DNA of 42,345 nt, taken from positions 1-42,345 of IMG/VR virus record IMGVR_UViG_3300025536_000023; one strand, written 5' to 3'. The notes beneath the pieces are model-generated. The model was not told the origin of the DNA and ran no database searches. It saw only the letters and a program-made list of their open reading frames with translations. Made by a program: the position numbers and the translations under genes. This stretch comes from a virus. Of this stretch, positions 1,381-24,354 are shown one piece after another (position 1 is the first letter of the stretch; the number at the start of each line of letters is the position of its first letter).

Positions 1381-3213
1381 CTAGCGCGTCGCGCGAACCT
1401 GCTCGAGGAAGCGGCGATCGTTGCCAGAGAACAACGACGCCGCGAGCGCGCCCTGAATCTGCGGCATCGCACCGAGAACCACGTCCGCCGCCGTGCGCGG
1501 GTCGAGGGACTGGACGACGAGATTGATGGTCACGTTGCCGCCGCCCGCGCGCGAGGCGCCGAAGCCGCCGCCAGCGGCGCCGCCGCCGGAGCCGTAGATC
1601 GGTCCCGCGCTCGTGCCCGTCCCACCTCCGCCCGCGCGCGAGGCAGCAAAACCGCCGCCCGCCGCACCGAAGCCGGGGAACAGGAAGCCAACCGCCTGCA
1701 ACGCCAACCACTGCGCCAGCATGTCCGCGAGCCCGGCGACGACCGACGCCGCGAAGTTGCGGAAGGCTTCGCCCGCGCTCACCGTCCCCGACAGGATGTC
1801 GCGGAAGAAGCCACGGAACGAGTCAAAGGCAACGTCGACCGTCTGCCCGCCAATGTTCGAGATCGACTCCGCGATCTGCTTCATGCGCGCGTCCACCTGA
1901 CCCGCGAAGGTGCCGGTCGACTTCGCCGCCGCGATCTGCTTCGCCTCGATCTTGTCGACGAGGTCGAGGAACTCGCGGAGTTTCTCTTGGTCGCCGTCCG
2001 CGACGAACCGCTCGTACAGGTTGAGGCGTCGGGTTTCCGCCGTATCCGCGATCTGCACCAACGACGCGTTGAGTTGGTCGAACGGGTCCGCCGCGAGTTC
2101 GGCTTCCAACCGCGTGCGCTCAAGCGAAGTGGCGTAGGCGTCGACGAACTGCTGCGACAGCGCGAGATCTGCTTCACGCTGGCGACGCACCGTCTCCAAC
2201 TCGTTGAAGACCTTGACGCCAGCGCTCGCAACGAACTGGGAAACGGCGATGGCCTTCTGTGCGAACTGCTCAAGCCGCGCGCTGTCACGCTCCGCCGCCT
2301 TGATCTCTTCGCTTCGCAGGTTGAACGCGCGCTGGCGCGTGGCGGTGATGCCAGCCTCCGCAGCGGTCGCGCCGACGTTGGCGAAGGGGTTCGCGAAGCG
2401 GACGACGCCGGCTTCGGCGCGCGCCTTGGCCGAAATGGCCGCGCCGCGTTCGAGCGACTTAACCCAAGCGTTGTGAGCGTCCGTCGCGGCCTTAGTCTTC
2501 GCGGGAGCATCGGCAAACTCTTTTGTCAGCCCGGCGATTTCCGACCGCAGTTCAACGAGGATCTTTTCGTTTTCGATGCTCAGCATTTCATCGACGAATG
2601 CCCTTATCGCGTCGCTGGACTCCGCGTAGGACTTTGCGCCGAGATCCACGGCTGCGCTATCCGAAAGAGCCTTCAGCGCGCGCTGAGTTCGCTCGACAGC
2701 TTCAAGTACCTTGATGCCCTGCGCATCGTTCTCGATCTTCGGTATTTCAAACGGAACGCTATCCCGTGCGGTCAGCCCGAAGTTGACCACATCTGTAGTC
2801 CGCACGGACTTCCGAATCTCTGCGAGTCGATCGGCGATCCGTTTCAGCTTGGCTTCAGCATTGTTCTGCTCGCCACCGATCCCGAGCATTTGCTGGTTGA
2901 ACAGCCGGATCGCCTCCGCTGCCTTGTCCGTCGCCTTCGAAACGATGTCCATGATGCCGGAGAACCCGAGCACCTTCGCCGCGAGATCGAACGCGAACGC
3001 GGCGCCGGCCGCCTTGCCGATCGACGTGAGCTTGGCAACGAGGAAGCCGGACTTCTTCTCGACCGTCTCGATGCCGGCCGCCATCTTCTGCGTCGACTGC
3101 TCGGTCTTCTTCGCGGTCTGGTCGAAGATGACGCCCGCCTGCCCGAGCTGCTTCTTGAGCTGCTCGAGGTCGACTTCGAACTGGACCTTCAGTTTCTCGT
3201 CATTGACGGCCAT
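1381..3213 (-). CDS. Tail tape measure protein
   Basis: 610 aa. The N-terminus is a long charged coiled coil (VDLEQLKKQLGQAGVIFDQ), followed by a hydrophobic Ala-rich patch near residues 65-85. Helical coiled-coil sequence continues to about residue 470. The C-terminus contains FRGFFRDILSGTVSAGEAF, a hydrophobic segment and Gly-rich repeats (AAGGGFAASRAGGGG, then AAGGGFGASRAGGG), typical of lambda gpH-type tape measures. It lies directly after the frameshifted chaperone pair, the invariant tail gene order. Its ATG overlaps the end of the T frame by 14 bases and has an AGGAG 11 bases upstream. By the roughly 0.15 nm per residue rule the tail would be at most about 90 nm. The family call is firm. 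Confidence 0.93.
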   Translation of the reverse strand: MAVNDEKLKVQFEVDLEQLKKQLGQAGVIFDQTAKKTEQSTQKMAAGIETVEKKSGFLVAKLTSIGKAAGAAFAFDLAAKVLGFSGIMDIVSKATDKAAEAIRLFNQQMLGIGGEQNNAEAKLKRIADRLAEIRKSVRTTDVVNFGLTARDSVPFEIPKIENDAQGIKVLEAVERTQRALKALSDSAAVDLGAKSYAESSDAIRAFVDEMLSIENEKILVELRSEIAGLTKEFADAPAKTKAATDAHNAWVKSLERGAAISAKARAEAGVVRFANPFANVGATAAEAGITATRQRAFNLRSEEIKAAERDSARLEQFAQKAIAVSQFVASAGVKVFNELETVRRQREADLALSQQFVDAYATSLERTRLEAELAADPFDQLNASLVQIADTAETRRLNLYERFVADGDQEKLREFLDLVDKIEAKQIAAAKSTGTFAGQVDARMKQIAESISNIGGQTVDVAFDSFRGFFRDILSGTVSAGEAFRNFAASVVAGLADMLAQWLALQAVGFLFPGFGAAGGGFAASRAGGGGTGTSAGPIYGSGGGAAGGGFGASRAGGGNVTINLVVQSLDPRTAADVVLGAMPQIQGALAASLFSGNDRRFLEQVRATR

Positions 3214-4005
3214 GGCCCATCTCCTTCCGGCGCTCGCCGCGCACTCGTTCCTCGCGTTCGATCGCCGCCCGCTCGGCCGTCACGATGCTCACGAACTGCA
3301 CGAACGTTGCCGACTGATCGAGCAAACCGCCAGCAACGGGCATCACGCCAGCCTCGACCCAGTCGAGCGCCGTGAAGGCCGCGCTGATCTCGAGCGTCGC
3401 GTGCGACGCGGGGCACCGGTACACCGGTTCCCGGTCGCCAGAGCAGACCTTGCAAGCCGGATCCCCCAGCCCGCCGCAGGCGGTGCACGTCCGCCAAAAC
3501 ACGGGCTCGGGCGCGGGGCTGTCGCAGCCCCACGCCTTGCGCGCGCTCGGATCGGTTCGGCATGCGGGGCACTTAGCTCCTACGTCGCCGTAGCGCCCTC
3601 GGGTGAGGGCACGGACTTTCCCACGGTTTCGCTCGACAGGCCGTTGACGGCCATGATCTTGGTCGCGAGTTCGGCGCGAGCCCAGAAGGGGATCGAGACG
3701 AGCGTGTCGTCGGTCGGCAGGCCGTCGGCGCCGAACTCGAACTTGATCTGCTGTCCGTCCGCGCCGGGGAACTTGCGCCAGCCGTACAGGCTCTGCCGCA
3801 GGACTTCGACGATCGCCGCGTAGCGAGCCTCGCCGCGCTCGGCTTCGGTCGTGCATTCGTTCGCGCGCAGGAACGACGCGCGCACGGCGGACTCCTGCGC
3901 GACGGTCCAGCCGTGCGCGAGGAACACGGTCGCATCCTTGCCGCTCTCCGCCACGTCGGCGTCGATGGTCAGTTCGTGCGAAGCCTTGGGGTTCAGTCCG
4001 ATCAT
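3200..4005 (-). CDS. Tail assembly chaperone GT, -1 frameshift fusion product
   Basis: If ribosomes slip -1 at the GGGAAAG heptamer, the first 130 residues of G join an overlapping frame that stays open to 3200, giving about 268 aa. The added domain is Cys-rich: AKCPAC, then AWGC, CTACGGLG, CKVCSGD and YRCP, a pattern like the CxxCxGxG modules of DnaJ zinc fingers. It then reads VEAGVMPVAGGLLDQ, a motif I associate with T-frame proteins of many phages. The charged C-terminus ends EMGHGRQ and overlaps the tape-measure start. The T frame has no good start codon of its own before its conserved part, which supports expression only by frameshifting. Confidence 0.82.
3580..4005 (-). CDS. Tail assembly chaperone, G-like (unshifted product)
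   Basis: 141 aa, starting MIGLNPKASHELTIDADV and ending PSPEGATAT. It sits between the tail tube and the tape measure, the place of lambda G. It is the shorter product; a -1 slip at 3616-3622 would replace its last 11 residues with the T domain. The protein is a small mixed alpha/beta protein with no membrane segment or cysteine cluster apart from one Cys. The ATG at 4005 is preceded by a weak purine stretch (GAGACGA). The function, keeping the tape measure soluble and recruiting tube subunits, is known for lambda G/GT. It is inferred here from position and the frameshift signal. Confidence 0.85.
   Translation of the reverse strand: MIGLNPKASHELTIDADVAESGKDATVFLAHGWTVAQESAVRASFLRANECTTEAERGEARYAAIVEVLRQSLYGWRKFPGADGQQIKFEFGADGLPTDDTLVSIPFWARAELATKIMAVNGLSSETVGKSVPSPEGATAT
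3595..3610 (-). promoter_or_regulatory. Stem-loop downstream of slippery site
   Basis: GCCCTC-ACCC-GAGGGC: a 6-bp perfect GC stem with a 4-nt loop, starting 5 nt after the heptamer, the usual distance for a stimulatory structure. A further CGT/ACG pairing is possible across a bulge. The G stop codon lies just beyond it, at 3582-3580. Confidence 0.7.
3616..3622 (-). promoter_or_regulatory. -1 programmed frameshift slippery heptamer GGGAAAG
   Basis: On the minus strand the G frame reads GTG GGA AAG, so the heptamer G GGA AAG is in the phase needed for a -1 slip. It is identical to the lambda G-T slippery site. A 5-nt spacer (TCCGT) leads into a perfect stem-loop at 3610-3595. Confidence 0.88.
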
Positions 4006-4126: not shown

Positions 4127-5818
4127 TTACTGCGCCGTGTAGATCAGGACGAAGTCGTTGTCGGCGCCCGGCGTGTTGCTCACGTTCGAGAACTGCCCGC
4201 CCGTGACCTGGCAGGAAACTTCGTGCGTCAGGTGCCCGTTGCGCTCGCCGTCCGTGATGCCTTGGTAGACGAGCCCCGGCACCTCGAGCGCGAACATGTT
4301 GCCCAGCGTGGAGCCGACGTTGAAGTTGAGCGCGATGGCCGAGCCCGCGAGCAGCGACCCGACGAACGGGTGCGACGACTCGAGGTCCGCCTCGGGGTCG
4401 AAGTTGAGCGAGCCCGCGCGGCCGACGATGCCGGCCTCGAGGATGCCAGTCGCCTCGTTCATGCTCTCGCGGAACTGGACGTCATGGCCCGCGTCCAGCG
4501 TGACCGAACGCACGCGCGGCGCGTAGGTCGTGCTCGACCCCTCCACGCGCAGCGTCATGGCCGTCGACAGGCACAGCGGCGCAACCTGCATCGGGTAGGT
4601 AACGCCCGAGAGGATCGCGGAATCCGCCACGCCCTCGGCCGCGCCGGTGAAGGTGAAATCGAGCATCGCCGGCTCGCCGTTCACGCACCCCAGTTGGAAC
4701 GTGCCGCGCGCGCCCTTCATCTTGTAGAGCAGGCCGTCCGAGTAGCCGGCGAGCGAGAGCGTCGGGATGTCGTCGTAGGCCACGGCCTCGGCCGTGCCGA
4801 TCGAGTCCGCGTCGGCGGTGCCGGCCGCGGTGAGAAGCCGCGCGACGGCCTCGCCTTCCGCGAGCCCCTTCGCGTTGTAGATGCGCGCCCAGATCGTCTT
4901 GCTCGCGGTGTCGACGCGCGTGACGACCATCGTCGCGCCGTTCGTCGCGCCCTGGTACACGTCGCCAATCGCGACGTCGGGCGAAGGCGCGGTCGTGTAG
5001 CCGAAGCGGATCGTCGCGTGCGTCTTGGGCCACCACGCGCGGCCGGCCGACACGTCGACCACGCCAATCTGAATCGTCGCACCCGGCGTCTCGTTGGCGA
5101 ACGTGAGCGACGCGGTCGTGATCGGGAGATCGGTCGTCGTAACCGTGCCCGTGACGATGCCGACGCCGTTGTGCGCGGGGTTGACCGAGCCGGAGATCAG
5201 GACCGCCATGCCGGTCGTGAAACCGTCCGTGACCCACGAACCGCTCGCGCGCACGAGCTTGTTGCCCGTCGCTGCGAAGCTGATGATGTTCGACTCGAAC
5301 GCCGAAGCCGGGGCCACGCTCGGCGTGCACGTCGCGCCAGTCGTCCCGCCCGTGATGACGTTGGTCGCGTCGAACTCGCCGATGATGTCCGCGAGGTAGA
5401 GCTTGGTCGTGCCCGTGTAGGTGTTCTTGACGACCGTGCCGGTGGCGCCGGAGGTCGCCTGCGTGACGCGCTCGCCGTGGCGCAGCGGGCCGCTCGTGAT
5501 CGCGCCGATCGTGAGCTTGGAGATCGGGGCCGAGCGCATGCCGCACCCGCGGAGGAACACGTCCCACGGCGGGGTGATACCCGTGCTCGGCGCCTTCATC
5601 TGGATCCCGAACGTCGCGCGCGCGTCCTTGCGCGTCGGCCGCCCCATGATCGGCGTGAGCGTCTCGCGCATCTCGTCCGAGACGTAGCTCTGCGGCTCGA
5701 ACACGAACTGCGCGTTACGCAGCAAGTGCTGCGCGTACGTGGCGGCAAGAACGTTCGTGTCGAAGGTGCCGCTCGTGGCCTCGACCTTGGCGGCAAGCTG
5801 CTTGATTCGGGCCAGCAT
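4127..5818 (-). CDS. Major tail tube protein with inserted beta modules
   Basis: 563 aa, starting MLARIKQLAAKVEATSGTFD, with an SD GGAG 10 bases upstream. It lies between the tail terminator and the G/GT chaperones, the standard tube position. Residues 1-105 and about 350-563 look like the tube fold (LLYKMKGARGTFQLGC; LDFTFTGAAEG; a C-terminal strand-rich part). Between them are at least two Gly/Thr-rich inserts (SGATGTVVKNTYTGTTKLYL; GATNGATMVVTRVDT). They resemble each other and a segment of the hydrolase at 9421-10833, and probably form surface domains on the tail. A typical siphovirus tube protein is 150-300 aa, so this one is unusually large. Gene order supports the call strongly; the fold assignment is inference. 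Confidence 0.82.
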   Translation of the reverse strand: MLARIKQLAAKVEATSGTFDTNVLAATYAQHLLRNAQFVFEPQSYVSDEMRETLTPIMGRPTRKDARATFGIQMKAPSTGITPPWDVFLRGCGMRSAPISKLTIGAITSGPLRHGERVTQATSGATGTVVKNTYTGTTKLYLADIIGEFDATNVITGGTTGATCTPSVAPASAFESNIISFAATGNKLVRASGSWVTDGFTTGMAVLISGSVNPAHNGVGIVTGTVTTTDLPITTASLTFANETPGATIQIGVVDVSAGRAWWPKTHATIRFGYTTAPSPDVAIGDVYQGATNGATMVVTRVDTASKTIWARIYNAKGLAEGEAVARLLTAAGTADADSIGTAEAVAYDDIPTLSLAGYSDGLLYKMKGARGTFQLGCVNGEPAMLDFTFTGAAEGVADSAILSGVTYPMQVAPLCLSTAMTLRVEGSSTTYAPRVRSVTLDAGHDVQFRESMNEATGILEAGIVGRAGSLNFDPEADLESSHPFVGSLLAGSAIALNFNVGSTLGNMFALEVPGLVYQGITDGERNGHLTHEVSCQVTGGQFSNVSNTPGADNDFVLIYTAQ

Positions 5819-14188: not shown

Positions 14189-15349
14189 TTACGCGCCCAT
14201 GCTGAACGACTCGCCGCGGCGCACCGCGACATCGAAGAATGCGACCGTGCGCAGGTGGCGCTGCACCGTGCGGAAGCCGAGCTGGTTCGTCGCCTCGACC
14301 ATCAGGCCGCCCCACTGGCCGATCAGCAGATCCGCCCAGTTGCCGAAGATCAGGTCGTTGGTGCCGAGCTGGGTCGTCGCCGCCTGCTTGTAGCCGCAGA
14401 TCGTCTTGGCCTGCTCGTTCCAGAGCTCGCGATTGCCGAGCGGCTGGATGTTCGCCTTGTTGTCGGTGCCGCCCGTGACGTCCTTCACCTGCTTGATCCG
14501 GTTCTTCGTCGCGACCGACAGCGCCCAGCCGAGGTTGCCCTCGAGCGCGTTGGCGTTCTCGACGTCGTTGATCATGTTCTGGAGCAGGTCGTAGGTCGGC
14601 GCGCTACCCGCGTTCGTCTCGGTCGAGACGCCGGCCCAGTTGATGAGGCCGAGCGGCTGCTGACCACCCGTGCCGCTGATGCCGGCGAGGTCCAGCTTCA
14701 GCGCCATCTGCGCCGCCTGGTCCGAGCGGATCATCGACTCGACGGCCGGCTGCAGCGTGTGCAGCAGGTCGCTCCACGGCGTGATCGTCGCGAGGATCTT
14801 CGGCGTCATGGAGAGCTGGCCCATGGTCAGCTGCGAGTCCGTGATGCTCGCGGCCTCGTTGAGCCAGTACGCCGTGGTGCCGCCCGTGACCTTCGGGATG
14901 TTCAGCGGCGAGACGGTCAGGCCGCTGAGCTGCGTCGCGCCGAGGTTGGCGAGCACGCTCTTGGCGTAGAGCAGCGGAATGATCTGGTCGACGGCGATCT
15001 CGGTCGGGACGGCGAAACCGCCGGCCGAGTCGGGAACCGTGCCCATCGCCTTGACGTTCTTGGTCGTCTCGTCTGCGATGGCCTTCTCCATGCCGGCCTC
15101 GGACCAGTTGTTGGTCCAGACGCCGCGGTAGAACTTGGCGAGCGAGAACTTCTCGCCCTTGTGCGTCGCCTCGGCCGAGCCGGGGAGGCTGAACGCGCGC
15201 TGGATCTCGGCCTGCTTGGCGAGGTTCGCGGCGACCTCGGCCTTGTGCTCGGTGACCATCTTCGAGAGCGCCTCGAAGTTGGCGGCGTGCCCCTTCTCGA
15301 CCTCGGCGCGGATGGCGTCGGTCAGGGCCTTCAGTTGTTCGGGAGTCAT
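14189..15349 (-). CDS. Major capsid protein, HK97 fold
   Basis: 386 aa. The N-terminal 50-60 residues are a charged helix (TPEQLKALTDAIRAEVEKG), a short delta-domain-like scaffold expected to be cut off by the prohead protease. The mature part contains hallmark segments of HK97-type capsids: TVPDSAGGFAVPTEIAVD (about 104-121), SGLTVSPLNIPKVTGG, AYWLNEAASITDSQLTMGQL, ALKLDLAGISGTGGQQPLGL and a C-terminal VRRGESFSMGA. It lies right after the protease and portal genes. A strong hairpin follows its stop. Confident. Confidence 0.95.
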   Translation of the reverse strand: MTPEQLKALTDAIRAEVEKGHAANFEALSKMVTEHKAEVAANLAKQAEIQRAFSLPGSAEATHKGEKFSLAKFYRGVWTNNWSEAGMEKAIADETTKNVKAMGTVPDSAGGFAVPTEIAVDQIIPLLYAKSVLANLGATQLSGLTVSPLNIPKVTGGTTAYWLNEAASITDSQLTMGQLSMTPKILATITPWSDLLHTLQPAVESMIRSDQAAQMALKLDLAGISGTGGQQPLGLINWAGVSTETNAGSAPTYDLLQNMINDVENANALEGNLGWALSVATKNRIKQVKDVTGGTDNKANIQPLGNRELWNEQAKTICGYKQAATTQLGTNDLIFGNWADLLIGQWGGLMVEATNQLGFRTVQRHLRTVAFFDVAVRRGESFSMGA

Positions 15350-15425
15350 GGGGTGTCGTCTGTTTCTCGGCGCCGTGCGCCGGGTTGAATCGTGGATCGG
15401 TTGGTTGGGTCGATTGGTTCTGCCG

Positions 15426-16766
15426 TCAGTTCTTCTTGGCGAAGCCCTCGCGCACGGCGTTGACCGCCTGCTCGAGCACCGCCGCGTAGAACTCCCCGCT
15501 GTTTTTCACTCGACTCTCGGGGCTCGGACCGGCTCCCGCAGGGCTCCCGCCCCCGGCTGCCGCTTTGGGCTGCGCAGGGGCCGCGCCTGCCGCGCGGCTG
15601 ATTTCCTCGAGTCGAGTGCTGAGCGTCACGAGGGCATCGCTCAGCTTGGATTGGGTCGACGCGTTCGCGCGGAGCGAGGCGTCCAGTTGTTCGACGAGCG
15701 CGGCGAGGCGCTCGGTGGGGTCCGGCTTCGCCGGGGTGGGCGCGGCCGGATCGGCGGGCGGCGTGGCATCCGAACGGACGTCCGCGGACGTCCCATCGGC
15801 ATCCTTGGCCACGGGAAGGGCATCCAGCTGGACGTCCGAAGCATCCGGGACGTCCGGCGTGGGCTCCGGCTCCAGCGCCGCAGGCGTGGGCGCGGGCGCC
15901 GGGATCAACTCCGCGCCGTCCCCGTCCATATCCACCCCCGCACGCGCGAGCGCGCGCCGGGCCGCAACCTCGAGCCCGCCCAACGCGTGCACCGTGCGCA
16001 CGCGCGACGGCGCGTCGAATGCCTTCGCGATCTCCGCGAGCACCGCATCGAAGTCGCGTTCCGCGAGCCGCTTCGCGGCGACGGCGCTTTCCAAGCTGCG
16101 CTTCAGCGCGTTCGGATTGGCCCCGATGCTCACGACCGACAGTTCGAGCAAGTCGCTCGCTTCGTACACCACGCCCCAGGGACCGAGCCCGAGCTTGACG
16201 CGCTCGTCCTCCGACTCCGGCCGGTGCGACGCGAGCGGCTGGAAGCCGACCGACACGGCCGGCAAGTCGCCGTCGCGCACGAGGTTGTAGAGCACGTCGT
16301 TGGACAGCCCGCCGATGCTCTTCTCGTCCTCGTGGATTCGCGAGGTGGTGAGCAGCGCGCGCATGCCCGCTTCGCTCTTGCCCTTCTTGGCGCTCGTCAC
16401 CCGCCCGATGGGGTGGTTGTGATCGTGCATCCACAGGAGCATCGGGTTGGACTTGAAGTTGGCGAGATCCCAGCCGGCGACGCGGATGATGTCGCCCATG
16501 CGGTCGGGCGTTTCGTCGCTCGCGACGTGGTCCACGCTGCGCGTGGCTTCGGAATCCGAACCGCCACCCTTGCCGCCCGCGGCCTTGCTCGCCCGGCCCC
16601 CGGCCGTCGGCACGTACCGAATGCGCATGTGCTCGCAGTCGGACTTGATCGCGAGCACTTCGGTTTCACCGAGCGCAAGCAGTTCGTCCTGCGTGGCCAC
16701 GCCGGTCCAGATCCGCTTGGCGGTCGCGTCGAACTTGCCGGGGATGAGAATGGTCGGGGTCGTCAT
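15426..16766 (-). CDS. HK97-type prohead protease with a long scaffold-like tail
   Basis: 446 aa from the ATG at 16766; AGGA lies 7 bases upstream and overlaps the end of the portal gene. Residues 81-121 (VASDETPDRMGDIIRVAGWD, then LWMHDHNHPIGR) and 164-180 (RDGDLPAVSVGFQPLAS) are the conserved blocks of the U35 family. His116 and Ser172 are the likely catalytic pair. The protease domain ends near residue 210. About 235 more residues follow: a helix, a Pro/Ala/Asp-rich linker and a coiled coil (LVEQLDASLRANASTQSKLS). Typical family members are 170-230 aa, so the tail may be a fused scaffold. Confident on the protease. Confidence 0.92.
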   Translation of the reverse strand: MTTPTILIPGKFDATAKRIWTGVATQDELLALGETEVLAIKSDCEHMRIRYVPTAGGRASKAAGGKGGGSDSEATRSVDHVASDETPDRMGDIIRVAGWDLANFKSNPMLLWMHDHNHPIGRVTSAKKGKSEAGMRALLTTSRIHEDEKSIGGLSNDVLYNLVRDGDLPAVSVGFQPLASHRPESEDERVKLGLGPWGVVYEASDLLELSVVSIGANPNALKRSLESAVAAKRLAERDFDAVLAEIAKAFDAPSRVRTVHALGGLEVAARRALARAGVDMDGDGAELIPAPAPTPAALEPEPTPDVPDASDVQLDALPVAKDADGTSADVRSDATPPADPAAPTPAKPDPTERLAALVEQLDASLRANASTQSKLSDALVTLSTRLEEISRAAGAAPAQPKAAAGGGSPAGAGPSPESRVKNSGEFYAAVLEQAVNAVREGFAKKN

Positions 16767-16774
16767 GGGTTTCC

Positions 16775-19444
16775 TCAATCCAACGGGTTCAGCACGCACC
16801 GGCAGTTGATGACCTCGCCAGCGGGCGCACGCGGGTCGTTGGGGTACGCGAGGTTCGGCGCGTACTCCGCACCGAGCGCACGCACCTCGCCATCGAGCGC
16901 GCGGTGTGACTCGCGCACCGCGTCGTCGCCAGCCGTCGCCCACTCGGTTTGCGTGACGCCCTCGGCCTCCATCTGCAACTGCCGCGCGCCGTTGGTCGCG
17001 TGCGCGGATTCGGTGCGTGCGATGGCGAGCGCGCGCGACTCGCGGTCGCGGAACGCGAGAGCCACGTTGCCCTCGAGCTCGGGCAGGTGCTCTTGCACCG
17101 CGAGTTGCAGGTCCGCGATCGACGACGCGTCCTTGAACGTCTCGACGAGCGCGCCGCGCACCTTGTCCGCGAGCGTCGAGTTGACGCCCTCGGACAGTTG
17201 GATGAGCTGCTCGCTGAGCTGCTTGACCACGCGCGGATCCTGCGTGCCGATCGAGACGCCGCCGAGCTCGTCCGCCATGTCCGCGAGCGCCGCGCTGGAG
17301 ATCCGCGTGAGGTGCGGCTTCATCAGCTTGGCGAGGTTCGCTTCCCACTCGGTGCGGTTGAGCAGGAGCTTCTCGAGCAGCGCCGTGTCGTTGTCGCTGA
17401 TGCGCTCGAACGTGACCCCTTCGAACCCGCGCGCGGCCTTGCCGTGCGCGGCGAAGTCGCGGAACCGCGCGAACTGCGAGCTCAAGTACTTGCGCAGGAA
17501 TCCGCGAGCCGCCTGCAAGAGCGCGCGCTCGCCAGGGAGCATGACGCGCTTGATGACGCCCTCGGCGTAGTCGAGGCGCTCCGCGCGCGACTGCATCGCG
17601 GAACGGGAAACAGGCGAGCCCGGCGCACCCTTGGCGGAATCGTCGGGCGAGTCCCCCGAGTCGGAGCCCTCTTCTTCTCCGGCCGCGACACCCGACGAAC
17701 CGCCGCCGGAAGCGCCGGACTCACCCGAGCCATCGTTGCTGACCGACGCCGGCACGAACGCCGGCGTACCGGCCGGCCCCATGATCGCCTCGGCCTGCAC
17801 GGGCGTGAGCCCGAGCAGCGTCTGCAGGAGTTGCAGGCCCGACTCGCGCGGCAGTTCGCCAGCGGCTACCTGCGTAACGATGTCGATCGCCACCTGCATC
17901 TGCGCGCCGTTGAGCAGTTGCTGCTGGACGCCGTCGCCCGCGAGCGGACTGTCGGGCGAGTTGGCCGCGACGTCAGCGCCGCTCGGCGCCGCGTTCGGAT
18001 CTGCGTTGGGATCGACGTTCGGCGAAGTCGGTTCGACAGGGTCGGGCGTGGCGCCAATGTCCACGTCCCCGCCCTCGGCGCGCGCGCTCACGCCGTTCAT
18101 CTCGAGCGCCTCGTTGAACGTCGCGCCCACGGCCATCGCCGCCACGCGCGCAGAGCTCTCGATGCGCGCGGACATGTCGCGCTGCAGCTCCGCGATCTCG
18201 TCGGTGCAGAAGCGCAGCGTGCACGCCGCGTACTTGCCATCGCGCAGCGACGGGAAGAAGAACGCGTTGATGCGGTCCTCGATCGAGCGCAGGAAGGTCA
18301 AGACCCCGTTGGGACCCTCCCACATCGCGCGCAGCCCGTTCTCGTAGTTCGAGTACGTCGCGTCCTTGAGGATGCCGAGCACCACGAGCGGCACGCCCGT
18401 CACGGCCGCGCACGCCCAGTCGTGGCGCTCCATGAACTTCTCGAACTCCATGTCCTTGGGGGACATCGTGTTCGCCTGGAACGTCGCGCCGCTCAGCACC
18501 TTCCAGCGCCCGCGGTTCGCGGCCTGCCCGAACTCCTCATCGACCTCGGCCTGCGCCTGCTTGATCGCGGCTTCGCTCGAGTTGTCGGGGAGGATGATGA
18601 AGCCGCCCGGGTCGCCGCCCTCGCGCGCCATCGCTTCGACGTAGCGCTGGACCTGATACGCGACGCCGAGCTCGCGCAGGATCGAATCGACCGCGCCGAG
18701 CCCACGCCAGTTGTTGTACGGGTCGTACTCGATGAACGAGAGGACCGCGTGCGCGGGGATCAGCCGCTTGGTCGAAGAGCCGATCGAGCCGTTGCCGCCC
18801 CTCGCGACCGGGTACGAGTACTCCGACGGGAAGCAGTTCAGGTCGTACTTCTCAATCGACATGATCGACGGGCGAACCTGAACGATCTGCGCGGGCGTGT
18901 CGCCCGGCTGGATCGCAGCGCCCTGCGCGTCGAGCAGGATCCACCAGTCCTCGCCGTGCTCGATGCGCGAGAACGTCGAGGCTTCCATCGCCATCGCCCA
19001 GGACGTGGCGCGGTTGGGCTTCTTGAACAGGCGGACCATCGGGTCCGTCGCCGGCAGCGCCTTGAAGCCCTCGCCCTCGCCCTGCCCGATTTCGTACTTG
19101 ACCGACGCGACCGCCGCGGCCTTCGCGCGCGTGCACGCGTAGAGAACCCAGTCCTCTTCCATCGGCCGCGAGATCGACTCGTTGCCGCCGAGCGTGGAAC
19201 TGAACGACGGCGCCTGCAGGATGTTCCAGCCGGCCGACTTCGCGACCGTCGACAGGGCGCCGACGTTGATGCCGTTCGCCGTGCCGACCAGCCGAAGCGC
19301 GGGTATGCCGAACTGGTCGCGGCCACCGGTGGGCTCGAGGACCACGCCGCCGTGGCGCTGCGCGATGGCCGAGGCGCGGCCCGCGAAACCGCCCTCCGCC
19401 CGGAGCGCAGCCCGGGTTCCGCGCGTGTCCTTGTGGTCAGCCAC
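16775..19444 (-). CDS. Portal protein fused to a MuF/gp7-like head morphogenesis domain
   Basis: 889 aa from a GTG at 19444 (no ATG in frame nearby, no SD; start uncertain). Residues about 80-460 look like a phage portal: EEDWVLYACTRAKAAAVASV, DPMVRLFKKPN, GEDWWILLDAQG, then YDPYNNWRGLGAVDSILREL and FEKFMERHDWACAAVTGVPL. A low-complexity linker rich in Pro, Asp, Ser and Gly (about 475-620) follows. The last ~100 residues carry the MuF/SPP1 gp7 signature: IARTESAHATNGARQ, WATAGDDAVRESHRALDGEV and EVINCRC. These are normally separate adjacent genes; here they are one open frame. Portal forms the DNA entry ring; MuF-type domains are minor head proteins. Confidence 0.92.
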   Translation of the reverse strand: MADHKDTRGTRAALRAEGGFAGRASAIAQRHGGVVLEPTGGRDQFGIPALRLVGTANGINVGALSTVAKSAGWNILQAPSFSSTLGGNESISRPMEEDWVLYACTRAKAAAVASVKYEIGQGEGEGFKALPATDPMVRLFKKPNRATSWAMAMEASTFSRIEHGEDWWILLDAQGAAIQPGDTPAQIVQVRPSIMSIEKYDLNCFPSEYSYPVARGGNGSIGSSTKRLIPAHAVLSFIEYDPYNNWRGLGAVDSILRELGVAYQVQRYVEAMAREGGDPGGFIILPDNSSEAAIKQAQAEVDEEFGQAANRGRWKVLSGATFQANTMSPKDMEFEKFMERHDWACAAVTGVPLVVLGILKDATYSNYENGLRAMWEGPNGVLTFLRSIEDRINAFFFPSLRDGKYAACTLRFCTDEIAELQRDMSARIESSARVAAMAVGATFNEALEMNGVSARAEGGDVDIGATPDPVEPTSPNVDPNADPNAAPSGADVAANSPDSPLAGDGVQQQLLNGAQMQVAIDIVTQVAAGELPRESGLQLLQTLLGLTPVQAEAIMGPAGTPAFVPASVSNDGSGESGASGGGSSGVAAGEEEGSDSGDSPDDSAKGAPGSPVSRSAMQSRAERLDYAEGVIKRVMLPGERALLQAARGFLRKYLSSQFARFRDFAAHGKAARGFEGVTFERISDNDTALLEKLLLNRTEWEANLAKLMKPHLTRISSAALADMADELGGVSIGTQDPRVVKQLSEQLIQLSEGVNSTLADKVRGALVETFKDASSIADLQLAVQEHLPELEGNVALAFRDRESRALAIARTESAHATNGARQLQMEAEGVTQTEWATAGDDAVRESHRALDGEVRALGAEYAPNLAYPNDPRAPAGEVINCRCVLNPLD

Positions 19445-23851: not shown

Positions 23852-24354
23852 GGGCTCACCCTCGCACTCGCGATCGCCTCGCTCAGCGCCCGCAGCACGC
23901 CCGCAGCGCGCTCGCCAAGCACTCCCTCGCCGCCGAACGCTACGCCCGCGTCCGCAAGTAATCGCTCGGCCAAGAGGAACGCGCCGCGCACCTCGTTGTC
24001 GGTGAGCCCGGCGTCGTCGAACAGCGACGACAGCGGGCCACCTCCGGGGGCGGGGCGCAGTTCGCCGGTCGCGAGCATCGAGACGAGCGCGGCGAGCATG
24101 GCCTGGCCTTCGGCGTCCAAGCCGCCGCGGTCGAGCGCGATGCCGACGGCGATGCCTGCGGCGCTCGCGCAACGATCGGTGAAGCGCGCGAGCTCGGGCT
24201 CGCTCATCGACTCCAACCCGATCGGGTCGCTCGGGCTCGATCCCGGCCCCGCGCAGCTCGCGCCCGTCGGGCACAAGGCCAGCGCCGCGAGCAAGAGCCC
24301 GAGCAGCGCGAGGCCGAACGTCGATCCACAGCCCTTGCCGTTTTCGGTTCGCAT
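23848..24354 (-). CDS. Probable exported lipoprotein
   Basis: 168 aa. The N-terminus is a signal sequence: MRTENGKGCGSTF, then a hydrophobic core (GLALLGLLLAALALCPTGAS) ending at CAGPGSS, where GASC is a possible lipobox, though Gly at -3 is unusual. The mature part is rich in Ala, Leu and acidic residues and predicts as helices (LDAEGQAMLAALVSMLATGE). It follows the lyase-like gene by 12 bases and is coupled to the zinc ribbon. It may be an outer-membrane phage protein (superinfection exclusion or a spanin-type partner), but no family is recognised. Confidence 0.6.
   Translation of the reverse strand: MRTENGKGCGSTFGLALLGLLLAALALCPTGASCAGPGSSPSDPIGLESMSEPELARFTDRCASAAGIAVGIALDRGGLDAEGQAMLAALVSMLATGELRPAPGGGPLSSLFDDAGLTDNEVRGAFLLAERLLADAGVAFGGEGVLGERAAGVLRALSEAIASARVSP

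Follow-up and report, generated by a model that had tools for sequence, protein, structure and literature searches.

Organization of the tail gene region

The window (the whole stretch of DNA that was analysed, 42,345 nt) carries on its minus strand two overlapping reading frames, G and T, that lie between a tail tube gene and a tape measure gene, with a slippery heptamer and a hairpin near the end of G. The order tail tube, G, T, tape measure is the same as in the related phages described below. The features are as follows, in the order of transcription.

4127–5818, minus strand: upstream neighbour, tail tube protein (563 aa), with tblastn matches to phage proteins that adjoin G/T, one of them annotated as a tail tube protein
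3580–4005, minus strand: gene G, zero frame (141 aa; ATG at 4005, stop at 3580), G profile match with E=1.5e-8
3616–3622, minus strand: slippery heptamer GGGAAAG, in the G-frame register G GGA AAG, 36 nt before the end of G
3593–3612, minus strand: hairpin of 8 bp starting 3 nt after the heptamer (-15.5 kcal/mol), a possible stimulator
3200–3616, minus strand: T region in the -1 frame (138 codons plus TGA), predicted C-terminal domain of GT, T profile match with E=2e-11, containing invariant cysteines
1381–3213, minus strand: downstream neighbour, tape measure protein (610 aa), matching PHROG tape measure families (best E=1.4e-13) and Pfam Tape_meas_lam_C

A preliminary description of this DNA had claimed a lambda-type -1 frameshift at GGGAAAG in the G frame, and its anatomical details are accurate except that it omitted the strand. 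The heptamer is exact at 3622–3616, and the -1 frame runs without interruption from 3616 until the TGA at 3202–3200, just inside the tape measure gene and overlapping its ATG at 3213. The predicted GT product of 268 aa is likewise the right count (129 residues, a lysine and the 138 residues of T). Elsewhere in the window (14189–17348, minus strand) two adjoining ORFs encode the capsid protease and the major capsid protein; both match one and the same PHROG (617), in which the two seem to be fused.

As a string of letters GGGAAAG is ordinary, occurring three times in the window against 3.7 expected. The slip site is the sole in-frame heptamer of the form X_XXY_YYZ (Y = A or T) in 13 minus-strand genes, which together offer 5,439 in-frame positions. 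When the codons of G are shuffled, such a heptamer falls within the final 60 nt in 1% of the shuffles. The open -1 frame taken alone is weak evidence, because the sequence is GC-rich and the same frame is also open back through all of G, with the third frame open alongside. Codon-position GC shifts frames at the site, third-position GC being 0.91 for the G frame upstream of it and 0.82 for the T frame downstream.

Homologues of G and T

No direct relatives of G, T or the tape measure protein were found among the viral contigs and phages searched, and the collections searched contain no close relatives of this phage. Searches with the capsid proteins retrieved no genome, only a single short viral contig that breaks off in the capsid gene. 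The tail tube protein opened the route to relatives, which are phages of Rhizobium, Rhodobacter, Agrobacterium and Synechococcus, and searches with the T proteins of two of these brought in RcTiptonus and RHph_TM16. One alignment (A3) was too divergent for pattern searching and another (A5) yielded the contigs L016–L018; among 385 genomes of one class the additional matches were all weak. The similarity of the tail tube proteins is confined to about the C-terminal third; the N-terminal part of ~330 residues (window 4840–5818, minus strand) has no match in these phages.

Profiles of G and T were built from seven phages of Rhizobium, Rhodobacter and Agrobacterium (JP1, RcZahn, P11VFA, RHph_I4, RcTiptonus, RHph_TM16 and RHph_Y1_11), with the window left out. 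When compared with all six frames of the window, the G profile matches only the proposed G frame and the T profile only the proposed T frame, for which the next best value is E=0.18. The T sequences in the profile are the -1 extensions of each G, so that its start was chosen by the analyst; the match to the window lies deep within T, in its cysteine-rich body and C-terminal part. At the level of sequence these matches to both frames are the decisive result, and homology makes the T frame real. A chance open frame was considered as the source of T and was rejected, since the T profile matches the T frame and the relatives share both heptamer and T.

Neither G nor T of the window matches any Pfam, PHROG or NCBIfam model. 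The same is true of the G and T proteins of the relatives that were tested, the close group included, with the exception of G of the more distant Synechococcus phage S-CBS1, which matches tail assembly chaperone PHROGs. Because low sequence similarity between phages is normal for these proteins (PMC5009743), the missing match concerns the protein family and not the mechanism. AlphaFold models have a mean pLDDT of 42 for G and 50 for T, too low for a fold search.

Four cysteines, in CxxC, GC and CP motifs, are invariant in the T proteins of this group, and they look like a zinc site. The window T has in addition an insertion with a second CxxC pair, CTAC and CKVC (3430–3500, minus strand), which the other T proteins do not have.

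The position of these cysteines bears on whether T could instead be a separate gene with its own start, expressed by re-initiation or internal initiation with no frameshifting. Public records of several relatives do annotate T as an ORF from an internal start, and GTG codons are present within the window T. However, the T frame contains no ATG, GTG or TTG between the heptamer and the GTG at 3502, which lies past the conserved CxxC and GC, and the nearest in-frame ATG upstream of the slip site is at 3856, deep inside G. With no start codon ahead of the conserved cysteines, the conserved T domain could hardly be made without a frameshift. The T sequences of the relatives can also be aligned upstream as far as the slip site, and a separate T would leave the conserved heptamers unexplained. 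We consider an independently initiated T very improbable.

Slip sites and downstream structures in related phages

In each of the 13 relatives where both G and T could be located, a slippery heptamer stands at the end of G and the -1 T frame is open. The preliminary description had suggested such a comparison of homologues, and none was found in which the heptamer is destroyed and the T frame closed. The heptamer is A AAA AAC in JP1, RcZahn, RHph_TM16 and RHph_Y1_11 and in the Synechococcus phages S-LBS1, S-CBS1 and S-CBS3, A AAA AAG in RcTiptonus, and G GGA AAC in P11VFA and RHph_I4. The remaining three are contigs, with G GGA AAC in L017, A AAA AAG in L018 (an Acetobacteraceae MAG) and A AAA AAC in L022, which is counted although its G is a weak profile match. 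All of these differ from the GGGAAAG of the window. The relatives are not all independent, as P11VFA, RHph_I4 and L017 are mutually close and so are the Synechococcus phages. Two further sequences stand outside the 13: in CRP-406 the heptamer is accompanied by a short -1 ORF (55 codons), and in L021 an A AAA AAC precedes a T-like frame, with a G that is not established.

The recurrence of this arrangement also speaks to the reading of G and T as parts of one gene, split through decay or an error in sequencing or assembly, with a coincidental heptamer. The window comes from an IMG/VR virus record of unknown quality, which would leave room for such an error; independently sequenced phages nevertheless have G and T divided in the same way, with a heptamer where the two meet, and a broken gene is thus scarcely credible as the explanation.

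The heptamer of RcZahn (L005:5401–5407; MW677529.1 at about 23927–23933) is an in-frame A AAA AAC near the end of G, with the T homologue in the -1 frame. According to its published description, RcZahn shows no clear sign of a frameshift site (PMC8601537); the sequence suggests that, contrary to that description, the phage has a candidate site. In the Rhizobium phage records (L006, L007, L008, L011 and L004/L009) G and T are annotated as separate hypothetical proteins or T is omitted, and none of the records read has the two joined. The RHph_Y1_11 record is without an annotated T, which crosses the start of the record.

The preliminary description placed a 6 bp stem-loop (GCCCTC-ACCC-GAGGGC) after a 5 nt spacer, and this is exact at 3610–3595. 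It is the core of a longer hairpin, GUGCCCUC-ACCC-GAGGGCGC (3612–3593), in which one G-C and one U-G pair extend the stem to 8 bp and bring it to 3 nt from the heptamer. On this strand only 0.6% of positions are followed by a gap-free stem of equal stability at a spacing of 2–7 nt, and by folding energy the 30 nt segment ranks at p=0.018. Once bulged structures count as well, 25% of the positions sampled on the strand are equally stable. An upstream Shine-Dalgarno-like stimulator is weak in the window (-2.2 kcal/mol) and variable in the relatives. The exact pattern of heptamer plus hairpin also occurs in two viral contigs, neither of which has G or T, and these occurrences were taken as chance.

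Strong structures recur at the site in S-LBS1, S-CBS1 and RHph_TM16, and by some measures also in S-CBS3 and RcZahn, whereas a strong hairpin is missing at this place from JP1, P11VFA, RHph_I4, L017 and CRP-406. Combining the clades roughly by Fisher's method yields 1.5e-5 to 3e-4, with measures picked after the hairpin had been seen and clades that are not fully independent. The earlier proposal that the hairpin acts as a stimulator is partly supported, in that the structure is unusual for this genome (about 0.6–2% of positions) and has strong counterparts in some relatives but none in others. A role in stimulating frameshifting is plausible. There is nonetheless an appreciable, if lesser, chance that the frameshift is real and the hairpin is an idle by-product of GC-rich coding sequence, as the frequency of bulged structures of equal stability and the five sequences with no strong hairpin would allow; the rarity of gap-free stems with this stability and spacing, and the recurrence of strong structures in S-LBS1, S-CBS1 and RHph_TM16, argue against it.

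A probable lambda-like G/GT gene pair

Phage lambda makes gpG and gpGT by -1 frameshifting at G_GGA_AAG (PMC7618472). The G:GT ratio is about 30:1, with the tape measure protein bound by G and GT and the tail tube protein by T, and this organization is widely conserved among phages despite low sequence similarity (PMC5009743). The window shares with lambda the heptamer and its register, the location between the tail tube gene and the tape measure gene, and a T in the -1 frame; it differs from lambda in its cysteine-rich T and in the failure of G and T to match family models. On every feature that sequence can address, the window case works like lambda.

Closer comparisons are provided by RHph_TM16, RHph_I4, P11VFA, RcZahn, RcTiptonus and JP1, which share homologous G and T, the gene order, a heptamer near the end of G and the CxxC, GC and CP motifs of T; they differ in the heptamer used, in having no CTAC/CKVC insertion and in a hairpin that is variable or absent. 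The Synechococcus phages S-CBS1, S-CBS3 and S-LBS1 also have G, a -1 T and a tape measure gene, with A AAA AAC followed by strong structure, and the tail tube homologue of S-CBS1 matches that of the window. Their T proteins, in contrast, are without the cysteine motif and give no significant match to the T profile.

The locus is therefore best described, with high confidence, as a G/GT tail assembly chaperone gene pair that would be controlled by -1 programmed ribosomal frameshifting, and the lambda-type frameshift of the preliminary description, with its 268 aa GT, is strongly supported by homology in both frames, synteny and the heptamers of all 13 relatives. Most ribosomes would read G through to the stop at 3580. 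A minority would slip by -1 with Gly-tRNA and Lys-tRNA on G GGA AAG, re-pairing on GGG AAA, and would continue in the -1 frame to add the 138-residue T domain and give GT. The hairpin plausibly raises the slip rate. If lambda is a guide, many copies of G and few of GT would coat the tape measure protein, with T recruiting the tail tube protein. A more specific proposal, in which T is an uncatalogued zinc-binding family, recruitment of the tail tube protein is metal-dependent and the hairpin starting 3 nt beyond the heptamer determines the slip rate, is tentative and, taken as a whole, rather unlikely.

The mechanism is a known one, carried by G and T proteins that, as judged from their sequences, lie outside the catalogued families. 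The novelty is modest and consists of an uncatalogued T family marked by four invariant cysteines, the extra CxxC pair of the window T and the candidate site in RcZahn. The locus adds a well-supported example of G/GT frameshifting from an uncultured phage and links this phage to a set of phages, of Rhizobium, Rhodobacter and Agrobacterium, in which most T proteins carry the annotation hypothetical; it also brings to light a T family that is missing from Pfam, PHROGs and NCBIfam.
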